Shown piece by piece: positions 1,720 to 10,884 of a DNA stretch of 40,378 nucleotides. Source of the DNA: Gammaproteobacteria bacterium (GTDB lineage: Bacteria; Pseudomonadota; Gammaproteobacteria; Arenicellales; Poriferihabitantaceae); assembly GCA_011523765.1 (NCBI GenBank), contig WTGA01000069.1, forward strand, positions 1-40,378. Reading direction: 5' to 3'. Position numbers and translations under genes: made by a program. The notes under the pieces were generated by a model. It ran no database searches, was not told the origin of the DNA, and saw nothing but the letters and a program-made list of their open reading frames with translations. How positions within the stretch are numbered: position 1 is the stretch's first letter; the number at the start of each line of letters is the position of its first letter.

Positions 1720-4434
1720 CTAATGGGCCTCTTTCCAATTTCGACCAGTGCCGATATCCACGATCAGCGGTACTTTCAACTCCGTGACACCACACATCAG
1801 TTCCCTGGCCACATCGGACATTTCTGCAGCCTTGCTTTCTTCGACTTCGAAAACGAGTTCATCGTGCACCTGCAAAATCATCCTGCTGGATGACCGGTTA
1901 CGGACAATCCAGTGATCAAGAGCCACCATGGCAAGTTTGATTAGGTCTGCAGCCGTCCCCTGCATGGGGGCGTTGATGGCGGTACGCTCGGCGTACTCAC
2001 GCAGGGTCCGGTTTCTGGCGTTGATTTCGGGTAAATTGAGTCTTCGTCCAAACAAAGTCTCGACATACCCCCGGGCCCTGGCGTTTTGCTTGGTGCTCTC
2101 CATGTACCGTTTGACACCGGGATAACGGTCGAAATAGATATCGATATAACCCCGGGCCTCTTTTTGGTCGATCTTGAGTTGGCGTGCCAGGCCAAATGCC
2201 GACATGCCGTAGATCAATCCAAAATTGATCGCTTTTGCCCTGCGGCGCTGTTCGTCATCCACTTGGTCTGGCGGGACCATGAATACTTCGGCCGCCGTCG
2301 CACGGTGGACATCAATGCCATTCCTGAACGCGGTGACAAGCCTTTCATCACCAGAGAGATGGGCCATGATCCGAAGTTCAATCTGGGAGTAGTCTGCAGC
2401 CACCAGCACCTTCCCGTTTCCCGGAACAAACGCTTCACGAATCTTGCGCCCTTCTTCAGTCCGTATGGGGATGTTCTGTAAATTCGGATTCACCGAAGAC
2501 AATCGACCCGTCGACGCGACCGCCTGGTGATAGGATGTATGGATGCGTCCCGTTTTCGGGTTGATCAATTCAGGCAATTTGTCCGTATAGGTGCTTTTCA
2601 GTTTAGCAAGGCGCCGATGCTCCAGAATCGTGAGGGGCAATGCGTGTTCCTCCGCCAGCCTCTGCATGACACTTTCCGCGGTCGAAGGTTGACCCTTGGG
2701 TGTTTTCCGGTAAACCGGCAATCCCAGCTTGTCATACAGTATTGTCTGGATTTGTTTTGGCGAGGCAATGTTGAAGGGTTCCCCGGCGATTTCGTGGGCC
2801 TCCTCTTCCAACCTGATCAGGCGCTGAGCGAAATCCGCACTCAGCCTGCGAAGCAGGCCGGCGTCAATGCCTACACCGTTCATTTCGGTACGGGCCAACG
2901 CCGTCATCGTCGGCATTTCAATTTTCCGGAACAACGCATCCAGGCCTTTTTCCTTTTCCAGCTCCGGCAACAGCACCTGGTGCAACTGCAGGGTAATGTC
3001 CGCATCTTCCGCGGCGTACGGTGTGGCAAGAGCCAGGTCGACCTGGTCAAATGTCAGCTGGTTTCTGCCCGACCCGGCCACCTCAGAGAATTTTATGGTC
3101 TTCCTGCCAAGGTGTTTCAATGCCAGGGAATCCATATCGTGGTGCGAATTGCCCGCATCTAGGAGATACGACATCAGCATGGTGTCATGCGTGATGCCCT
3201 GCAACGCAATGCCATGGTATTGCAGGACTTCCAGGTCGTATTTCAGGTTCTGCCCGGTCTTGGGAATCTCCGGGTTTTCCAATACGGGCCGCAATTCTTC
3301 CAGCGTTTCCTCCAGTGGAAGTTGCCGGGGAACCCCGGCATAAGTGTGACCGAGGGGAAGGTAAGCAGCTTCTCCGGAGGTCACAGCGAAAGAGATCCCC
3401 ACCAAATGGGCCTGATGGGCATCCAGGCTGGTTGTTTCGGTATCCAGGGCAAAAATGCGGGCGTTCCGGAGCCTGTCGATCCATCCATGCAGCGATTTCC
3501 TGTCTAGAATGGTTTGATAATCGACCACATCGTCCTGTACTGGCCGCACGTCCACTGCTCTCGCATGGCCGGCCGGTCCATCCATTTCTTCCAACCAGGA
3601 CCGGAATTCCAGGTCCGTGTAACAGGCACGCAGGGTTTCATGGTCCGCCTGCCGAAGGGTCAGCGTCTCGGGAGTGTGGGCAAGTTCTACATCGCATTTT
3701 ATGGTGGTCAGCTGCCTGGACAGGGCCAGCTGGTCCAGGTTGTCACGCAGATTCTCTCCCACCTTTCCCTTGATGTCCGCTGCGTTTTCCACAATACCAT
3801 CCAATGTGCCGTATTCACGGAACCACTTCACTGCCGTTTTCGGACCCACCTTGGGAATACCGGGAATGTTGTCTGAAGCATCTCCAATCAGCGCAAGGTA
3901 CTCGATGATCCTTTCGGGCGGGACACCGAATTTGTCCACCACTCCCTGGTGGTCCAGGCGCACCCTTTTCATCGTATCCACCATTTCCACCCTGTCATTG
4001 ACCAGCTGTGCAAGGTCCTTGTCCGAACTCACAATCAATGTGCGGAATCCCTGTGCCGTGGCTTCCACCGACAATGTCCCGATGACATCGTCGGCTTCCA
4101 CGCCGGGAATCGAGATCAAGGGAAGCCCCATCGCCGGAACAATTTTCAGGATATACTGGAGTTGCTCGCGCAGGTCATCGGGCATGGGAGGGCGGTTGGC
4201 TTTATATTCCTTGAACAGGTCATTGCGAAATGTTTTTCCCTTGGCATCCATCACCACCGCAACATGGGTGGGGTGATATTCTTTTAGCAGGCTGCGCAAC
4301 ATGTTGATCATGCCAAATATCGCCTGTGTCTGGCGGCCATCCGAAGTGGCCAGCCGGTCACGTCCCATGGCATGGTAGGCACGAAACAGGAACGAGGCAC
4401 CATCTACCAGAATGAGCTCTTTGTCAGGGTCCAT
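1720..4434 (-). CDS. polA: DNA polymerase I
   Basis: This 904-residue protein is the repair and Okazaki-fragment-processing polymerase. All three domains are visible. Residues 1 to about 290 form the 5'-3' exonuclease (start MDPDKELILVDG, then VEADDVIGTL and DKDLAQLV). A 3'-5' exonuclease domain around 315-510 keeps its acidic residues in LDTETTSLD near residue 330, so proofreading looks intact. The polymerase domain carries motif A (DYSQIELRIMAHLSGD, about 680), the O helix (RRRAKAINFGLIYG) and motif C (QVHDELVFEV, about 855). The ATG start matches the family N terminus. The gene is divergent from the DUF2782-like gene, about 250 nt away. No clear terminator was found downstream. Confidence 0.98.
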   Translation of the reverse strand: MDPDKELILVDGASFLFRAYHAMGRDRLATSDGRQTQAIFGMINMLRSLLKEYHPTHVAVVMDAKGKTFRNDLFKEYKANRPPMPDDLREQLQYILKIVPAMGLPLISIPGVEADDVIGTLSVEATAQGFRTLIVSSDKDLAQLVNDRVEMVDTMKRVRLDHQGVVDKFGVPPERIIEYLALIGDASDNIPGIPKVGPKTAVKWFREYGTLDGIVENAADIKGKVGENLRDNLDQLALSRQLTTIKCDVELAHTPETLTLRQADHETLRACYTDLEFRSWLEEMDGPAGHARAVDVRPVQDDVVDYQTILDRKSLHGWIDRLRNARIFALDTETTSLDAHQAHLVGISFAVTSGEAAYLPLGHTYAGVPRQLPLEETLEELRPVLENPEIPKTGQNLKYDLEVLQYHGIALQGITHDTMLMSYLLDAGNSHHDMDSLALKHLGRKTIKFSEVAGSGRNQLTFDQVDLALATPYAAEDADITLQLHQVLLPELEKEKGLDALFRKIEMPTMTALARTEMNGVGIDAGLLRRLSADFAQRLIRLEEEAHEIAGEPFNIASPKQIQTILYDKLGLPVYRKTPKGQPSTAESVMQRLAEEHALPLTILEHRRLAKLKSTYTDKLPELINPKTGRIHTSYHQAVASTGRLSSVNPNLQNIPIRTEEGRKIREAFVPGNGKVLVAADYSQIELRIMAHLSGDERLVTAFRNGIDVHRATAAEVFMVPPDQVDDEQRRRAKAINFGLIYGMSAFGLARQLKIDQKEARGYIDIYFDRYPGVKRYMESTKQNARARGYVETLFGRRLNLPEINARNRTLREYAERTAINAPMQGTAADLIKLAMVALDHWIVRNRSSSRMILQVHDELVFEVEESKAAEMSDVARELMCGVTELKVPLIVDIGTGRNWKEAH

Positions 4435-4690
4435 AGCGTTTTGGAGGAGTTCTGTATGTGCGGTATTATGTCACTATTTGTCCCTATTGTATGGACAAGA
4501 GCAGGGACTTCCGGTTTGGCAACCCCTCTGTTTCCTGATCGAACGCCGGGAGAGCCGGGGAGAATTGAGCCATTGTGCTCATCCGGGCAAAACGCCCCCG
4601 GCCTGTTGTGTTACTATCCATGGAACCGGTATCGATGATATCGGGATGGTTGTCCTGTAATGATAATGATGTTTTGACGAGAACGTGGAA

Positions 4691-4999
4691 ATGAAATGGA
4701 TTCGTTTGGGCACCGCTGGCCTTATCGCAACCGGCCTGTTCATGTCTGTCGCCAGTGCCCAGGAAACAAATGAAACGATCCCGCTGCTTGTGCCGGAAGA
4801 GCTGACGATCGAAAGAAGGGGGGAATTTGAGATCGAGGAGTACCGGGTGGGCGGGCGTCTTGAGAGACTCGTGGTTCGCCGGGATGACGGGGTTACAGAA
4901 ATCTACCGTAACCAAAGAAACGACACATTGTGGTCCGCGGACGAGGCGGAAATTGGAGATGTGCAAAACACCAGGCAATGGCGAATCAGCGGTTGGTGA
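4691..4999 (+). CDS. Small exported DUF2782-like protein
   Basis: This protein of about 102 residues starts with a typical cleavable signal peptide (MKWIRLGTAGLIATGLFMSVASA, then QETN), so it is predicted to be exported to the periplasm. The mature part is short and charged, with IERRGEFEIEEYRVGGRLERLVVRR and a C terminus ending QWRISGW. This pattern matches the DUF2782 family of gammaproteobacteria, which is often encoded next to polA; the function is unknown. The track starts at an in-frame GTG (4685), but ATG at 4691 gives the more usual signal peptide and is preferred. Here the gene is divergent from polA rather than downstream of it. Confidence 0.75.
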   Translation: MKWIRLGTAGLIATGLFMSVASAQETNETIPLLVPEELTIERRGEFEIEEYRVGGRLERLVVRRDDGVTEIYRNQRNDTLWSADEAEIGDVQNTRQWRISGW

Positions 5000-5248: not shown

Positions 5249-7432
5249 TCATTGCAGGAGGTGGGCATTGCTGGTTGGAATCGACACGGTCACTGCGACA
5301 CCACGCCTGTCCCGGCGGTTTTCCGCCCAGGCGATCCCTTCATGGTATTCGGCAATCAACCGGACAATAAAAAGTCCCAATCCGAGGTGAGAGTGCTTGG
5401 CATTGGTCTTCCCGTAGGAAACCATCGGATCAAACAACCGTTCCGCAATCTCCTCGGGTATTTCAGGCCCTTCATTCAAAACCGTAATTTCTGCATTGCC
5501 ATTTGACTTGCGGGTCCTGACCAGAATGGGGGTGGAGGTTTCGCTGAACTGGACCGCGTTGTCCACCAGCTTGTCCAGCATCTGTGCCAGGTGGTCCGGA
5601 CTGCAGTTGACAATCAAAGGCGAAGAATCCGTCTGGATCAGGAACTGGTAGTCCGGGTAACTGTTGCGGTAACCATCGACATATTCTGAGATCAATACGG
5701 GCAGATTGAGAGGCTTTTTGGATTCACCCTTCAGCGCCTCTTCCAGATTGGCCGCTTCAGTCAGGTTGTTGAGCAATGACCGCAGCCTGCTTACACCGTT
5801 CCGGGCTCTTTGCATATGCTTGTTCTGGTCAATTTCCGGCGATTCGGCTTCGAGAATTTCCAGGGAGGAGCTCACCACATTCAACGGGTTGTTCATTTCA
5901 TGGGCCAGCGTGTCCGGCATCCCTTCAAGATAACGGGTATAACTGGAAAGGCGCTTCAACATGCTGGTAATACTGCGGCCCAGGTCACCGAGCTCATCAG
6001 CGGCGTATATCCGGTCGGGAATTCTTTCCTCCAGCACTCTGCCCTCGTTGGTAATGGCCTGTTCCGTCGTCGTGCTCAACCGCCTGATCCGGACGGTAAG
6101 CCTCCAGGCAAAGATAAACAACGTGAGCACCACGAAACAAAACACCAGAATGGTCACGATGGTAAGGCTCCTGAGCAGCCGGAACTGGAGGGCGAGGACC
6201 GCATAACTGCTTTGCTCCACAACGACCGCCCCCATAATTTCTTCCCCTGACTTGATGGGATAACCGGCAACAATGATTTCCGTTTTCTTGTCCAGGGAGG
6301 GGCGCTCTTCAACTTTGGGGGTTCCTTTCAGAACGGCCGTAAAGATTTTATCCGGACGATGGGTAACCTCTGGCAGGATGTCGGTGAATTGATCTGACGG
6401 ACGTTTGAGCAAGGCATCGATGTGCCCCTTGGTTCTCTGGTACATCCTGATCAGCCAGCCTTTTTCCTCCTCGACATCGGAATCTGCCGGGGGCTGGGCA
6501 GAAAGACCACCCACGACAGCACGCACCCGCTGCAAATTGTCCAGTATCCAGATTCGGGACTGGGGCCGGTCAAGCCCTTTGAGGATCTTCGTGAGCTCGG
6601 GAGAAGTGATAAACAGCTGGCTGGGTTCTTCCTTGCCTGAGATTTCAGGCGCCATTGAATACACGGTCTTGATTTCACCGGTCTCCGGGTCGTCAACATC
6701 GACCGCGAAAAAACCGATGCGGGAACGGGGACCGACCATGTCTCTTTCGATTCTCAGTTCAATCCGGTATCCCCATTCCGTTTCTGCCATTTCTGCGGTA
6801 AATTGGGTGACATCCTCTCCGGTGACGGGAAGTTTCCATTCTTCATCCACGAGAAAAACGCTCATGCGGCCCGGCTTTGAAACAACGATGAGATAGTGTT
6901 CCAGGTCTCCATTGGGGAGCTGCCGCAGCATCCTGATGTGATCGCTGGCATCCAGTGCAAGCTTGTCCAGATCGCGGTAGATGACATGCTCATCATTGAT
7001 TTCGAACAGCGCATACAGGTACTGGTCGAAATAACCCATCACGTTCATGAGCGAAAACGACCCGGGATCATAATCACTGTTGCAAATAAACAGGGTGTCT
7101 CCGGTATAGAAATTTACATGCTCCTTGACCGCTTCCCAGTCATTTGCGTTTCCATCGAGCTGTATGAAATTGTCCAGCTCATGGGCGTACAGGTCACTGC
7201 TCTCACCCAGCACTTCCGGAACACCTGTTTCCGGATTGAACAGGTCGGACCGGTCATGCAGTACTGTCGCAATGCCGTTTGCAGTCAAAAGCAGTGCATC
7301 CTTCTGGCCCTGGACAAGAAATTTCTTCATTTCCAGTACATAGTAATACCCCATCCAGGGAATGATCAGAAGCGCCAGTACCAGCCACAACAGTTTTGTA
7401 CGGATGCTCAGTGTACGCAACGATGTCAGCAT
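5249..7432 (-). CDS. pdsS: Membrane sensor histidine kinase, dedicated-sortase-system type (PdsS-like)
   Basis: A 727-residue sensor kinase. A transmembrane segment near residues 14-32 is followed by a large periplasmic part (about 35-415) that includes a CBM9-like stretch beginning IQLDGNANDWEAV (about 90-102). A second membrane segment (about 422-443) leads into a HAMP-like linker. The phosphoacceptor His lies in LAHEMNNPLNVV (His511), followed by an ATPase domain with DKLVDNAVQFS (Asn625) and HLGLGLFIVRLIA. The N terminus (IPWMGYYYVLEMKKFLVQGQ) and domain order match my memory of the TIGR03785 family, the kinase that accompanies a proteobacterial sortase and its LPXTG target. It is 12 nt downstream of its response regulator and surely co-transcribed. 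No sortase gene is present in the window, so the symbol rests on family resemblance. Confidence 0.8.
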   Translation of the reverse strand: MLTSLRTLSIRTKLLWLVLALLIIPWMGYYYVLEMKKFLVQGQKDALLLTANGIATVLHDRSDLFNPETGVPEVLGESSDLYAHELDNFIQLDGNANDWEAVKEHVNFYTGDTLFICNSDYDPGSFSLMNVMGYFDQYLYALFEINDEHVIYRDLDKLALDASDHIRMLRQLPNGDLEHYLIVVSKPGRMSVFLVDEEWKLPVTGEDVTQFTAEMAETEWGYRIELRIERDMVGPRSRIGFFAVDVDDPETGEIKTVYSMAPEISGKEEPSQLFITSPELTKILKGLDRPQSRIWILDNLQRVRAVVGGLSAQPPADSDVEEEKGWLIRMYQRTKGHIDALLKRPSDQFTDILPEVTHRPDKIFTAVLKGTPKVEERPSLDKKTEIIVAGYPIKSGEEIMGAVVVEQSSYAVLALQFRLLRSLTIVTILVFCFVVLTLFIFAWRLTVRIRRLSTTTEQAITNEGRVLEERIPDRIYAADELGDLGRSITSMLKRLSSYTRYLEGMPDTLAHEMNNPLNVVSSSLEILEAESPEIDQNKHMQRARNGVSRLRSLLNNLTEAANLEEALKGESKKPLNLPVLISEYVDGYRNSYPDYQFLIQTDSSPLIVNCSPDHLAQMLDKLVDNAVQFSETSTPILVRTRKSNGNAEITVLNEGPEIPEEIAERLFDPMVSYGKTNAKHSHLGLGLFIVRLIAEYHEGIAWAENRRDRRGVAVTVSIPTSNAHLLQ

Positions 7433-7444
7433 GTCCCGAAATTT

Positions 7445-8155
7445 CTAATTCACGGACCCATCATCCGACTGCCAACGATACCCCACGCCGAATACCGTTT
7501 GAATCTTCGAGAACGAATCGTCGATTTCCTTGAATTTTTTCCGGATGCGGCGAACATATCCGTTGATCGTGTTTTTCTCCACATAGCTTTGTCGTGTTGT
7601 TTGCATCAACACCTCGTAAGTCTTGACGTGGCCGGGATTCCGGGCCAGTGTCTCAATCAGCCAGAACTCGGTCAGAGTCAAACTCAGCAATTTTCCTTTC
7701 CATTGGATCGACATGCTGTTCTGGTTGACTTCTAGGTCGCCCAGGACCAGTGCGGGAGAGGAAGTGGAATCGCCCTGCACGGAAAAAGCAATTCGAAACA
7801 GTGAAGAAACCCGTTCCGCGAGGAACTGGAGATTGACGGGTTTGGTAATGTAGTCCCAGGCATCCAGTCTCAGGCCGGACACCCGGTCGATATCATTGTC
7901 CCGGGCAGTCAGAAAAATAATGGGCATTTGCGGGCTTTTCTGACGCAGTTCCCTGCAGATATCAAACCCGCCATCCATTTCATTCTCCAGCATGATATCC
8001 AGGATGACAAGATCCGGCAGTGACCTGGCGAACCCGAGCAGTGCTTCGGACTTGTTCCCGTAGGACTGCACGATGTAGCCCTGGGCAATCAACGCATCCG
8101 AATAGTTTTCTCTCTGGTCGGTGTCGTCTTCGACAATTGCAATGATTCTGGACAT
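7445..8155 (-). CDS. pdsR: OmpR/PhoB-type response regulator, dedicated-sortase-system type (PdsR-like)
   Basis: This 236-residue response regulator has a receiver domain at residues 1-120 and a winged-helix DNA-binding domain at about 145-236. The acidic pocket is IVEDDTD (residues 7-13), the predicted phosphoacceptor is Asp53 in VILDIMLE, Thr83 lies in FLTARD and Lys105 in YITKP. The usual GADDYITKP is changed to LDAWDYITKP, so the switch surface is slightly atypical. The insertion NEMDGGFDICRELR after the phosphoacceptor strand is characteristic of the TIGR03787-type regulators as I remember them. It is the first gene of a two-gene operon with the histidine kinase. Its regulon cannot be read from the window. 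Confidence 0.82.
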   Translation of the reverse strand: MSRIIAIVEDDTDQRENYSDALIAQGYIVQSYGNKSEALLGFARSLPDLVILDIMLENEMDGGFDICRELRQKSPQMPIIFLTARDNDIDRVSGLRLDAWDYITKPVNLQFLAERVSSLFRIAFSVQGDSTSSPALVLGDLEVNQNSMSIQWKGKLLSLTLTEFWLIETLARNPGHVKTYEVLMQTTRQSYVEKNTINGYVRRIRKKFKEIDDSFSKIQTVFGVGYRWQSDDGSVN

Positions 8156-8291
8156 GGACTTGGAACAGTTTGCCGATGGGTAAAAGACAGTATAACGGAT
8201 TCGGCCGGGGTATGAATACCTGGCGGTGTTTCAGGATATGGCCCTGCGTCATATCGTCATAACATTACCACTAGTTTCCCCCCTTGATACC

Positions 8292-8297
8292 ATTATA
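8292..8297 (-). promoter_or_regulatory. Candidate -10 element for the pdsRS operon
   Basis: The minus strand reads TATAAT here, a perfect sigma70 -10 hexamer in an AT-rich gap. It lies about 140 nt before the pdsR start codon. No good -35 hexamer is found at 16-18 nt, so the call is tentative. Confidence 0.25.
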
Positions 8298-8346
8298 AAA
8301 AGGTGTAATTGGATTCTGGTGAATAACTGGCAGAAAATTATTTCTA

Positions 8347-8574
8347 ATGAATCATAAATTGTTCATACCCATCACTGATGAAGTCCTCTATGATTATCCG
8401 GAACTGATCACCTCACCACTGCTTCCGTATCACGTCGACAATCCCTGTTTCCATTGGATGGCAACCATTGAATCCGCTGACGACGCCAATGACAGCGAAG
8501 TCCAGTCCAAGCGGTACGGCAATACACCGGCTGCAGACCAGACCACGACTCAAATCGGCTCCAGATTGGCATAA
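8347..8574 (+). CDS. Small hypothetical protein, 75 residues
   Basis: The first 40 residues (MNHKLFIPITDEVLYDYPEL and a segment ending PCFHWM) look like a genuine folded or conserved motif, with ordinary codon use. The tail from about residue 45 is low in hydrophobic residues and rich in D, S, T and Q. There is no signal peptide, membrane segment or nucleotide-binding motif. It is divergent from the pdsR operon and converges on uvrD, sharing 25 nt with the uvrD 3' end. No clear Shine-Dalgarno sequence precedes the ATG. I do not recognise a named family and give no function. Confidence 0.5.
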   Translation: MNHKLFIPITDEVLYDYPELITSPLLPYHVDNPCFHWMATIESADDANDSEVQSKRYGNTPAADQTTTQIGSRLA

Positions 8575-10718
8575 GAGCAGATTAACCACTTCATCCCGGC
8601 GTCGGCAAAGTGGACCTGTACCCTGGCATGGATACCCTGGCCCTCCATTCCGACCACGGTACCGGCCCCGAATTTACGGTGGCGGACCTGGTGTCCCAGC
8701 CGGATTCCGTCAAACCCGGCAGTCTGTGGCGGGGTTCCTCCGCGGAAAAGCACCTCGCCTGATTCCGCCCCGTCCCATCCCGGCGAGCGGATTCTCTCAA
8801 CATATTCCCCGGGTATTTCAGCAAGAAACCGGGAGGCCGGATTGACATGGGATTGCCCGTACTGCCAGCGGCGCCTGGCACGGCTCATGACCAGTTGTTG
8901 CATCGCCCGGGTCATGCCCACATAGCAAAGACGCCGCTCTTCTTCCAGGGAACCCTCCTCCAGGGATTTCTGGTTGGGAAACCGGCCCTCTTCCATCCCG
9001 CAGATGAAAACCAATGGAAATTCCAGTCCCTTGGCGGAGTGCAGGCTCATCAGTTGTACACAATCCTCCCATTCCTCCGACTGGCCTTCTCCGGCCTGCA
9101 GTGCCGCACTGTCCAGGAACGCCGATAAATCATCCTGCGTCTCGTTTTCCTCCCGAACAAAGTTTTCCGCGGCACTTACCAGTTCCTGCAGGTTCTCCAC
9201 CCGCCCCCGGGCCAATTCGCCCCGTTCATTTTTGTGGTGAGCAAACAAGCCACTTTGCTTGAGCACATGACCGGTCAGTTCCCCCAATCCAAGCCCCGCC
9301 GTGTCTTCGGCCATTTGCATGATCAGGTTCTGGAATCCGCTCAATGCCGCAAGCGCACGGGGTGAAATCCCCCTTTCGGCAATCAGTTCGGCCCCGGCCT
9401 GCCACATCGAAACCTGCTTGAGGCGGGCGTGCTCCAGAATGATCCCCATCGTCTTGTCTCCAATCCCCCGTGCCGGCAGATTCACAACCCTTTCAAAAGA
9501 ATGGTTGGAATCCCGGTTTGACAGCAACCGCAGGTAGGCAAGCGCGTTCTTGATTTCCGCCCGTTCATAGAAACGAAGACCACCATAAACACGGTACGGG
9601 ATATCCTGCCGGACCAGTTCCTGTTCGAAGACCCTGGATTGTGCGTTTGACCGGTAAAGTACCGCCGCCTCGTCCCGGCGGTGGCCCTGGCGTATCCAGC
9701 TACGCAACTGTTCCACCACAAAACGCGCTTCGTCATCTTCGGTGTGGGCATCATAAAGCCGAATGGGGGAACCCTCTGACCCCTTGGTCCAAAGGTTCTT
9801 GCCAAGCCGTCCCGAATTATGTGCAATGACCGCGTTCGCCGCGGTCAGTATCGTGCCCGTGGAACGATAATTCTGTTCGAGCCTCAGAACATTGGCCCCG
9901 GGAAAGTCCTTTTCGAAACTCAGGATATTTTCAACTTTTGCGCCTCTCCATCCGTAAATCGACTGGTCATCATCGCCGACCACGAACAAGTTCCTGTGCC
10001 GGGCGGAAAGCACTTGAAGCCATTGATACTGGACCGTATTGGTATCCTGAAACTCATCCACCAGGATATGCTGGAACCGCTGCTGGTAGGTTTCACGAAT
10101 CGCCTGGTTATTCTGGAACAACTCCAGTGTGCGCAGCAATATTTCCGCAAAATCCACCAGCCCGGATTTTTGGCAGACCTCCTCATAATCGGCATACACC
10201 CGATGCAGCATTTTTTCCCATATGCCGCCGTGTCCAGACGGCAGCCTTGCCGAGCGCCTGGACGCATCCTTGTGCTGGTTGATCATCCACTGCATCTGCC
10301 GCGGAGGCCAGTCCTTTTCATCCAGGTCGAGATTCTTCAGGACGCGGCGGATCAGCCGGAGCTGGTCATCGCTGTCCACGATTTCAAAGTTTTCAGGCAG
10401 GCCGGCCGCCTCCGGGTGCAACCGCAGTATGCGGTGGCACAACCCGTGGAATGTGCCCAGCCACATCCCGTGAAACGGGGCCTGCAACAGGGTTTCGATC
10501 CGCCCGTGCATTTCCCGGGCGGCCTTGTTGGTAAAGGTGGTGCCAAGAATCATATGGGGTGAAATCCCATGTCCCCGGACCAGGTACGCGATGCGGTGTG
10601 TCAGCACCCGGGTTTTCCCGCTGCCGGCGCCGGCGAGAACCAGCGATGGTCCGGAAGGGGCCGCCACCGCGGCCCTCTGGGCCTTGTTCAGGGGGTCCAG
10701 GATGTGGGAGATATCCAT
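8550..10718 (-). CDS. uvrD: DNA helicase II (UvrD), superfamily 1 3'-5' helicase
   Basis: UvrD unwinds DNA with 3'-5' polarity in nucleotide-excision and mismatch repair and removes proteins such as RecA from DNA. The sequence contains the SF1A motifs in order: Q-motif LNKAQRAAV, Walker A AGAGSGKT (residues 29-36), DEFQDT, VGDDDQSIYGWRGA, LEQNYRST, LMSLHSAKGLEFP and VGMTRA. The C terminus (HRKFGAGTVVGMEGQG, then WLICSYANLEPI) is the RNA-polymerase-interacting tail typical of UvrD rather than Rep. The track ORF begins at 10754, but MDISHILDPLNKAQ at 10718 aligns with the family start and is chosen (722 residues). It is divergent from the aminotransferase gene. Confidence 0.96.
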   Translation of the reverse strand: MDISHILDPLNKAQRAAVAAPSGPSLVLAGAGSGKTRVLTHRIAYLVRGHGISPHMILGTTFTNKAAREMHGRIETLLQAPFHGMWLGTFHGLCHRILRLHPEAAGLPENFEIVDSDDQLRLIRRVLKNLDLDEKDWPPRQMQWMINQHKDASRRSARLPSGHGGIWEKMLHRVYADYEEVCQKSGLVDFAEILLRTLELFQNNQAIRETYQQRFQHILVDEFQDTNTVQYQWLQVLSARHRNLFVVGDDDQSIYGWRGAKVENILSFEKDFPGANVLRLEQNYRSTGTILTAANAVIAHNSGRLGKNLWTKGSEGSPIRLYDAHTEDDEARFVVEQLRSWIRQGHRRDEAAVLYRSNAQSRVFEQELVRQDIPYRVYGGLRFYERAEIKNALAYLRLLSNRDSNHSFERVVNLPARGIGDKTMGIILEHARLKQVSMWQAGAELIAERGISPRALAALSGFQNLIMQMAEDTAGLGLGELTGHVLKQSGLFAHHKNERGELARGRVENLQELVSAAENFVREENETQDDLSAFLDSAALQAGEGQSEEWEDCVQLMSLHSAKGLEFPLVFICGMEEGRFPNQKSLEEGSLEEERRLCYVGMTRAMQQLVMSRARRRWQYGQSHVNPASRFLAEIPGEYVERIRSPGWDGAESGEVLFRGGTPPQTAGFDGIRLGHQVRHRKFGAGTVVGMEGQGIHARVQVHFADAGMKWLICSYANLEPI

Positions 10719-10884
10719 GGGTTGATTGTATCCGGGAAAACCAATAGCATACATGCAATCCGCCGGGAAAAGCGGATTTTTCGGGGTGGCCCGGTTTCGC
10801 CGGATGAATTGGTTCTATTGTAAATTCCAATTGGGAGTAAGGTTCAACAGGACAGCCACCAACCCTAACCACCGGTAACCATAC

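Follow-up and report, generated by a model that had tools for sequence, protein, structure and literature searches.

The kinase–regulator pair at positions 5249–8155 of the window (the whole 40,378-nucleotide stretch of DNA analysed here) probably represents a branch of the PdsR/PdsS two-component systems that has no sortase and still uses the ancestral divergent promoter, which now drives one small gene alone. The product of this gene is designated SmDP (small divergent protein). The features of the locus are listed below.

1720–4434, minus strand: polA, a conserved flank in the family, context outside the system
4685–4999, plus strand: gene for a DUF2782-like protein, a conserved flank in the family, context
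5249–7432, minus strand: sensor histidine kinase of 727 aa, PdsS-like (TIGR03785 relative)
7445–8155, minus strand: OmpR/PhoB-family response regulator of 236 aa with Asp53, PdsR-like (TIGR03787 relative)
8249–8292, minus strand: predicted operator of 11-bp-spaced direct repeats, TGGTATC / GGGG-AA / GTGGTAA / ATGACG, found with a position weight matrix (PWM)
8304–8309, plus strand: predicted -10 element TGTAAT, starting 11 bp past the operator end, towards SmDP
8347–8574, plus strand: SmDP, 75 aa (MNHKLFIPITDEVLYDYPELITSPLLPYHVDNPCFHW…), between the regulator and uvrD and divergent from the regulator
8550–10754, minus strand: uvrD/rep helicase, a conserved flank in the family, context outside the system

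Both the SmDP gene and the operator were overlooked in the original prediction.

The kinase and regulator genes are intact and adjacent to each other. The kinase matches TIGR03785 with 566.2 bits over profile positions 1–703 of 703, below the cut-off of 612.2 bits, and the regulator matches TIGR03787 with 274.9 bits over positions 2–227 of 227, below the cut-off of 335.7 bits. These are the best matches among all NCBIfam models, and the runner-up families, CreC for the kinase (157 bits) and CreB for the regulator (142 bits), are far behind. Being full-length best matches under the cut-offs, the two proteins are nearest to the PdsS/PdsR family and fall short of curated membership. The original assignment of the pair to TIGR03785 and TIGR03787 was right in this sense, and no unrelated kinase family gave a better match. 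The kinase consists of a periplasmic CBM9-like fold within a Cache-type sensor, a HAMP-like domain, HisKA and HATPase_c. The Pfam models HisKA, HATPase_c, Response_reg and Trans_reg_C all exceed their gathering scores. The motif AHEMNNP with His511 and the regulator Asp53 are present, and the catalytic domains are complete. The window kinase groups in the tree with the sortase-linked kinases of G343, G174, G090 and G409 (SH-aLRT 100; the tree is unrooted), in a broad PdsR/PdsS-like family.

The proteobacterial dedicated sortase system comprises the kinase PdsS (TIGR03785), the regulator PdsR (TIGR03787), a class GN sortase (TIGR03784), its target (TIGR03788) and PdsO (TIGR03789). The window resembles it in the full-length homology of kinase and regulator, in the kinase–regulator order accompanied by a divergent gene, and in the direct-repeat operator and -10 spacing, which are similar in the divergent promoter of many loci. 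It differs in that both scores are below the cut-offs, that sortase and target are not found in the genome, and that SmDP is the sole divergent gene.

The genome (3.09 Mb in 177 contigs, 96.48% complete) was searched with profiles. It contains no TIGR03784 sortase at E up to 0.001, and neither a TIGR03788 LPXTG target nor a PF04203 (Pfam) sortase at E up to 10. The missing sortase and target, first noticed in the window, are thus missing from the full assembly as well, and the suggestion that the sortase lies elsewhere in the genome fails.

The pair is not a lone orphan. Absence of the sortase is the rule in the order of the window and not peculiar to this genome; related loci bear Arenicellales and Acidiferrobacterales labels in public records. 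Among 60 relatives, the kinase is present in 46 and a sortase in 14, all of which also have the kinase. The sortase of these 14 relatives sits apart from the kinase, except for a second, divergent kinase copy in G056. Four of the 24 same-family genomes have a sortase, never adjoining the pair. In several relatives, the sortase is accompanied by another, shorter kinase–regulator pair. In G056 (L087:6188-9048 and 361-2541), a second TIGR03785-like pair, a divergent one, adjoins the sortase locus; a short kinase–regulator pair is present too, and the sortase loci of several relatives have the short pair only.

In the whole class (370 genomes), the kinase is seen in 78 genomes and the sortase in 50. 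Both are present in 41 (linked within 15 kb in 27), the kinase only in 37 and the sortase only in 9 (Fisher p 4e-24, uncorrected for phylogeny). The co-occurrence of kinase and sortase is strong, and there is a large kinase-only branch. In a tree of 105 kinases, the window falls in a group of 48, of which 47 are unlinked to a sortase (SH-aLRT 93). This group is nested in a 57-row group (SH-aLRT 100) that also holds sortase-linked members. The tree is unrooted.

The order polA–DUF2782–kinase–regulator–uvrD–aminotransferase is kept across the family of the window, with the exception of one genus. A stable, vertically kept locus had been proposed from the polA and uvrD flanks, and the conserved gene order of the relatives bears this out within the family.

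SmDP represents an apparently undescribed small-protein family. It has no family match in Pfam, NCBIfam or PHROGs at E up to 1, and only two chance-level matches in PDB. No membrane segment is seen by hydropathy, and the AlphaFold model is of low confidence outside residues 11–30. The 3' end of the gene overlaps the 3' end of the convergent uvrD by 25 bp. In the first 45 codons, pooled pS is 0.59 and pN is 0.07 in 19 pairs, indicating strong purifying selection at the protein level.

By six-frame HMM search, almost all loci of the window's type have SmDP in divergent orientation to the regulator. A scan of 85,000 genomes with SmDP as the only seed yielded 59 loci. Of these, 54 have the regulator in divergent orientation within 520 bp, 2 have it a few kb off, 1 has no regulator and 2 lie at contig ends. 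The 60 relatives include 43 with both SmDP and the kinase, 3 with the kinase only, 3 with SmDP only and 11 with neither (Fisher p 3e-7, uncorrected for phylogeny). Two of the three SmDP-only genomes retain the regulator beside SmDP, and the third is cut at the contig end. Class-wide, all SmDP matches below E 1e-7 fall in kinase-bearing genomes. Orphan-type loci of family f99 and of one g3 genome have neither the operator nor SmDP; SmDP is therefore not a strict requirement. In G006 (L244:7604-8392), the regulator, operator and SmDP are kept, and the gene after the regulator is not the kinase.

The full operator motif has four half-sites with an 11-bp period. The operator of the window, whose second TGG half-site is degenerate (TGACG), scores 29.7 bits with the PWM, compared with a training median of 33.3; the next best site in the window scores 13.0. 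The pattern TGGY-N7-TGGY, with spacing 11, is found upstream of the regulator in 38 of 49 relatives of the window's type, against about 1 in shuffles. Outside the PWM training set, 33 of 34 loci have the operator, and the background is 6 matches in 310 kb elsewhere. A TNTAAT -10 box is located exactly 11 bp beyond the operator in the SmDP direction in 48 of 55 loci. In class II activation by OmpR/PhoB regulators, a pho box with 11-bp repeats is in place of the -35 element, about 11 bp upstream of the -10 element. The promoters described here are alike in having direct repeats of 11-bp period that end about 11 bp upstream of the -10 element, and they differ in the half-site, which is TGGYA here and CTGTCAT in the pho box. 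The geometry of operator and -10 element is typical of an OmpR/PhoB-activated promoter and suggests that the regulator binds and activates here.

Two natural separations support the operator serving SmDP. In genus g6, SmDP has remained next to uvrD with its operator, whereas the relocated regulator–kinase pair has none in its promoter. In genus g7, inserted genes part the regulator from SmDP, and the operator is present at each. The g7 insertions (L071:11938-13746 and L072:12774-14346) carry esterase-like and acetyltransferase-like genes, named by eye.

Genome-wide scans for the operator used IUPAC patterns only. In the family, 69 sites were found, versus 31 with a reversed-pattern control. 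About 19 of the 69 belong to the SmDP/regulator promoter; several of the rest come from a single repeated element (in G020) or a recurring coding-like sequence. No convincing further regulon member was found in the family by this IUPAC scan, whose patterns weaker sites could escape. The repeated operator-like element (TGGATCATTAATGGCCTAACCATGGTATTTCCATGG) lies on contigs C29, C82, C102 and C114 of G020; it could be a mobile repeat or a real regulon.

In the sortase-linked members of the 57-row group, SmDP is directly upstream of the target and sortase. The order is SmDP–target–sortase in L145 and G135, PdsO–SmDP–target–sortase in L162 and X–SmDP–target–sortase in L163; in L285, SmDP is directly upstream of target–sortase. 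In more distant sortase-linked systems, PdsO, the target or the sortase usually takes the divergent position; SmDP is missing from most sortase-linked loci outside the 57-row group. The same type of repeat is present in the intergenic region of 19 of 52 sortase-linked loci (1.9 in shuffles), and a -10 element at 11 bp in 14 of 52 (1.1 in shuffles). Spacing-11 TGGY repeats alone under-count this group, where spacing 10 also occurs.

The simplest history, and the most likely one from these sequences, is that a conserved regulator-activated divergent promoter lost its sortase-side cargo in the lineage of the window and SmDP was left. Since the kinase tree is unrooted, the choice between loss and gain of the sortase genes rests on gene-order parsimony, and the opposite direction, a gain of sortase genes, is the less likely alternative. 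It had also been suggested that the pair was rewired to another envelope output. This is half right: the architecture of the promoter looks ancestral, and the gene left under it, SmDP, immediately precedes the target where related loci bear a sortase.

The periplasmic domain of the kinase covers residues from about 39 to 417. The periplasmic region was modelled with a pLDDT of 86. Its best PDB matches by Foldseek are CBM9 modules (1i82, E 9e-6; 7nwo, 6e-5), and the histidine kinase sensor region 2ykh ranks slightly below them. The periplasmic insert shares its fold with the CBM9 module of Thermotoga maritima Xyn10A (1i82), and differs in that it sits inside a Cache-type kinase sensor and has only 16% identity. 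Pfam CBM9_1 matches 15 of 46 kinase homologues, as does Cache_WalK; the window kinase alone gives no match to either model. The CBM9-like fold, seen in the model and in the profiles of homologues, makes a glycan ligand plausible, and it is plausible that the kinase senses a glycan through this fold set in the Cache domain.

The following mechanism can be proposed. PdsS would sense a periplasmic signal, probably a glycan, via the CBM9-like fold set in its Cache domain, and would phosphorylate the OmpR/PhoB-type regulator. The regulator is expected to bind the operator between the divergent genes, recognized by comparison, at its four half-sites of 11-bp spacing. It would then activate the SmDP gene in the class II manner, with the operator replacing the -35 element and the -10 element eleven bp away, and would probably also modulate its own operon. 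The divergent gene of related loci with a sortase is PdsO, the target, the sortase or SmDP, and SmDP, if present, directly precedes the target. Most likely, an ancestor of the window's order lost the target–sortase part of the locus and retained the regulator, operator and SmDP. For SmDP, two roles are most likely, with roughly even chances: it may work in the cytoplasm on the two-component system itself, as a feedback or connector protein, or it may be the one effector left. PmrD and MgrB are small connector proteins induced by response regulators, and MgrB is membrane-bound. SmDP is like them in being a small protein from a promoter controlled by the regulator of its own system, a control that is predicted for SmDP. 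The likeness is one of size and control; SmDP is predicted to be soluble whereas MgrB is membrane-bound. A broader proposal can be put at about an even chance: SmDP is a new cytoplasmic family and an integral third component of PdsR/PdsS (feedback/connector or effector), glycan sensing by CBM9–Cache drives an essentially single divergent promoter, and the sortase genes are an optional module appended or shed.

Could the pair instead be an ordinary envelope-stress system of the CreBC/ChvG type, its sortase name a database artefact and the sortase secondarily recruited by an ancestral sortase-free regulator? This is unlikely but deserves some weight. Kinases without any sortase are common (37 of the 78 kinase-bearing genomes of the class), and unlinked kinases are among the top TIGR03785 scorers. 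In most of the order, moreover, the sortase is apart from the pair, and in several loci it is with the different, shorter kinase–regulator pair. However, CreC and CreB score far lower than TIGR03785 and TIGR03787, and 41 of the 50 sortase genomes of the class contain the kinase, 27 of them linked, an association given above with its uncorrected p value. SmDP is also directly upstream of target–sortase in linked members of the same group.

It is improbable that the operator only autoregulates the regulator–kinase operon, with SmDP merely located by chance in an intergenic region that is conserved. In most loci, the operator is about 90–120 bp ahead of the regulator start, a position that would suit autoregulation, but in 48 of 55 loci the -10 element is on the side of SmDP, 11 bp away. 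When the regulator of g6 was displaced, the operator remained at SmDP and did not follow it, the separated genes of g7 each have their own operator, and the SmDP family is under protein-level selection. Still less probable is that the organism does have a sortase and target, hidden in assembly gaps of this metagenome-assembled genome. Its 177 contigs and 96.5% completeness leave some room for this, but most of the 24 same-family genomes also have no sortase (4 have one, none beside the pair), and the locus is contiguous and syntenic with them. The reading of a sortase-less PdsR/PdsS branch with SmDP under the ancestral promoter is preferred over these three.

The regulator named for a dedicated sortase is thus not tied to one: in most of a bacterial order, the sensor, regulator and promoter persist without a linked sortase. 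Automatic annotation as sortase-system proteins would mislead for the kinases of sortase-less genomes. With the operator and promoter defined, at the level of prediction, the class GN sortase regulon becomes testable. That the SmDP family was retained after the sortase genes were lost suggests that it functions in the core of the signalling system. SmDP and the pair have remained together across an order of bacteria that are mostly uncultured.

Other genes are found around the pair in related loci. In families f3, f6, f8 and f12 of the order, a bactofilin gene (PF04519) is located close to the regulator end of the pair (L057:6698-7234, L080:11696-12301, L104:12956-13633 and relatives). The bactofilin of the window genome itself sits on a different contig. 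Bactofilin was dropped as a candidate partner of the system because the linkage is absent in f1, f2 and f10. On the kinase side, families f3, f6 and f8 have a phosphoribosyltransferase gene. Between the DUF2782 gene and the kinase, L068 (8566-8970) and L071 (8204-8674) encode a small, conserved and probably exported protein of about 135–155 aa (VRIYKLNSKDQPVKARWVK...). Not noted in the window, such a small exported-type protein is seen in several family members.
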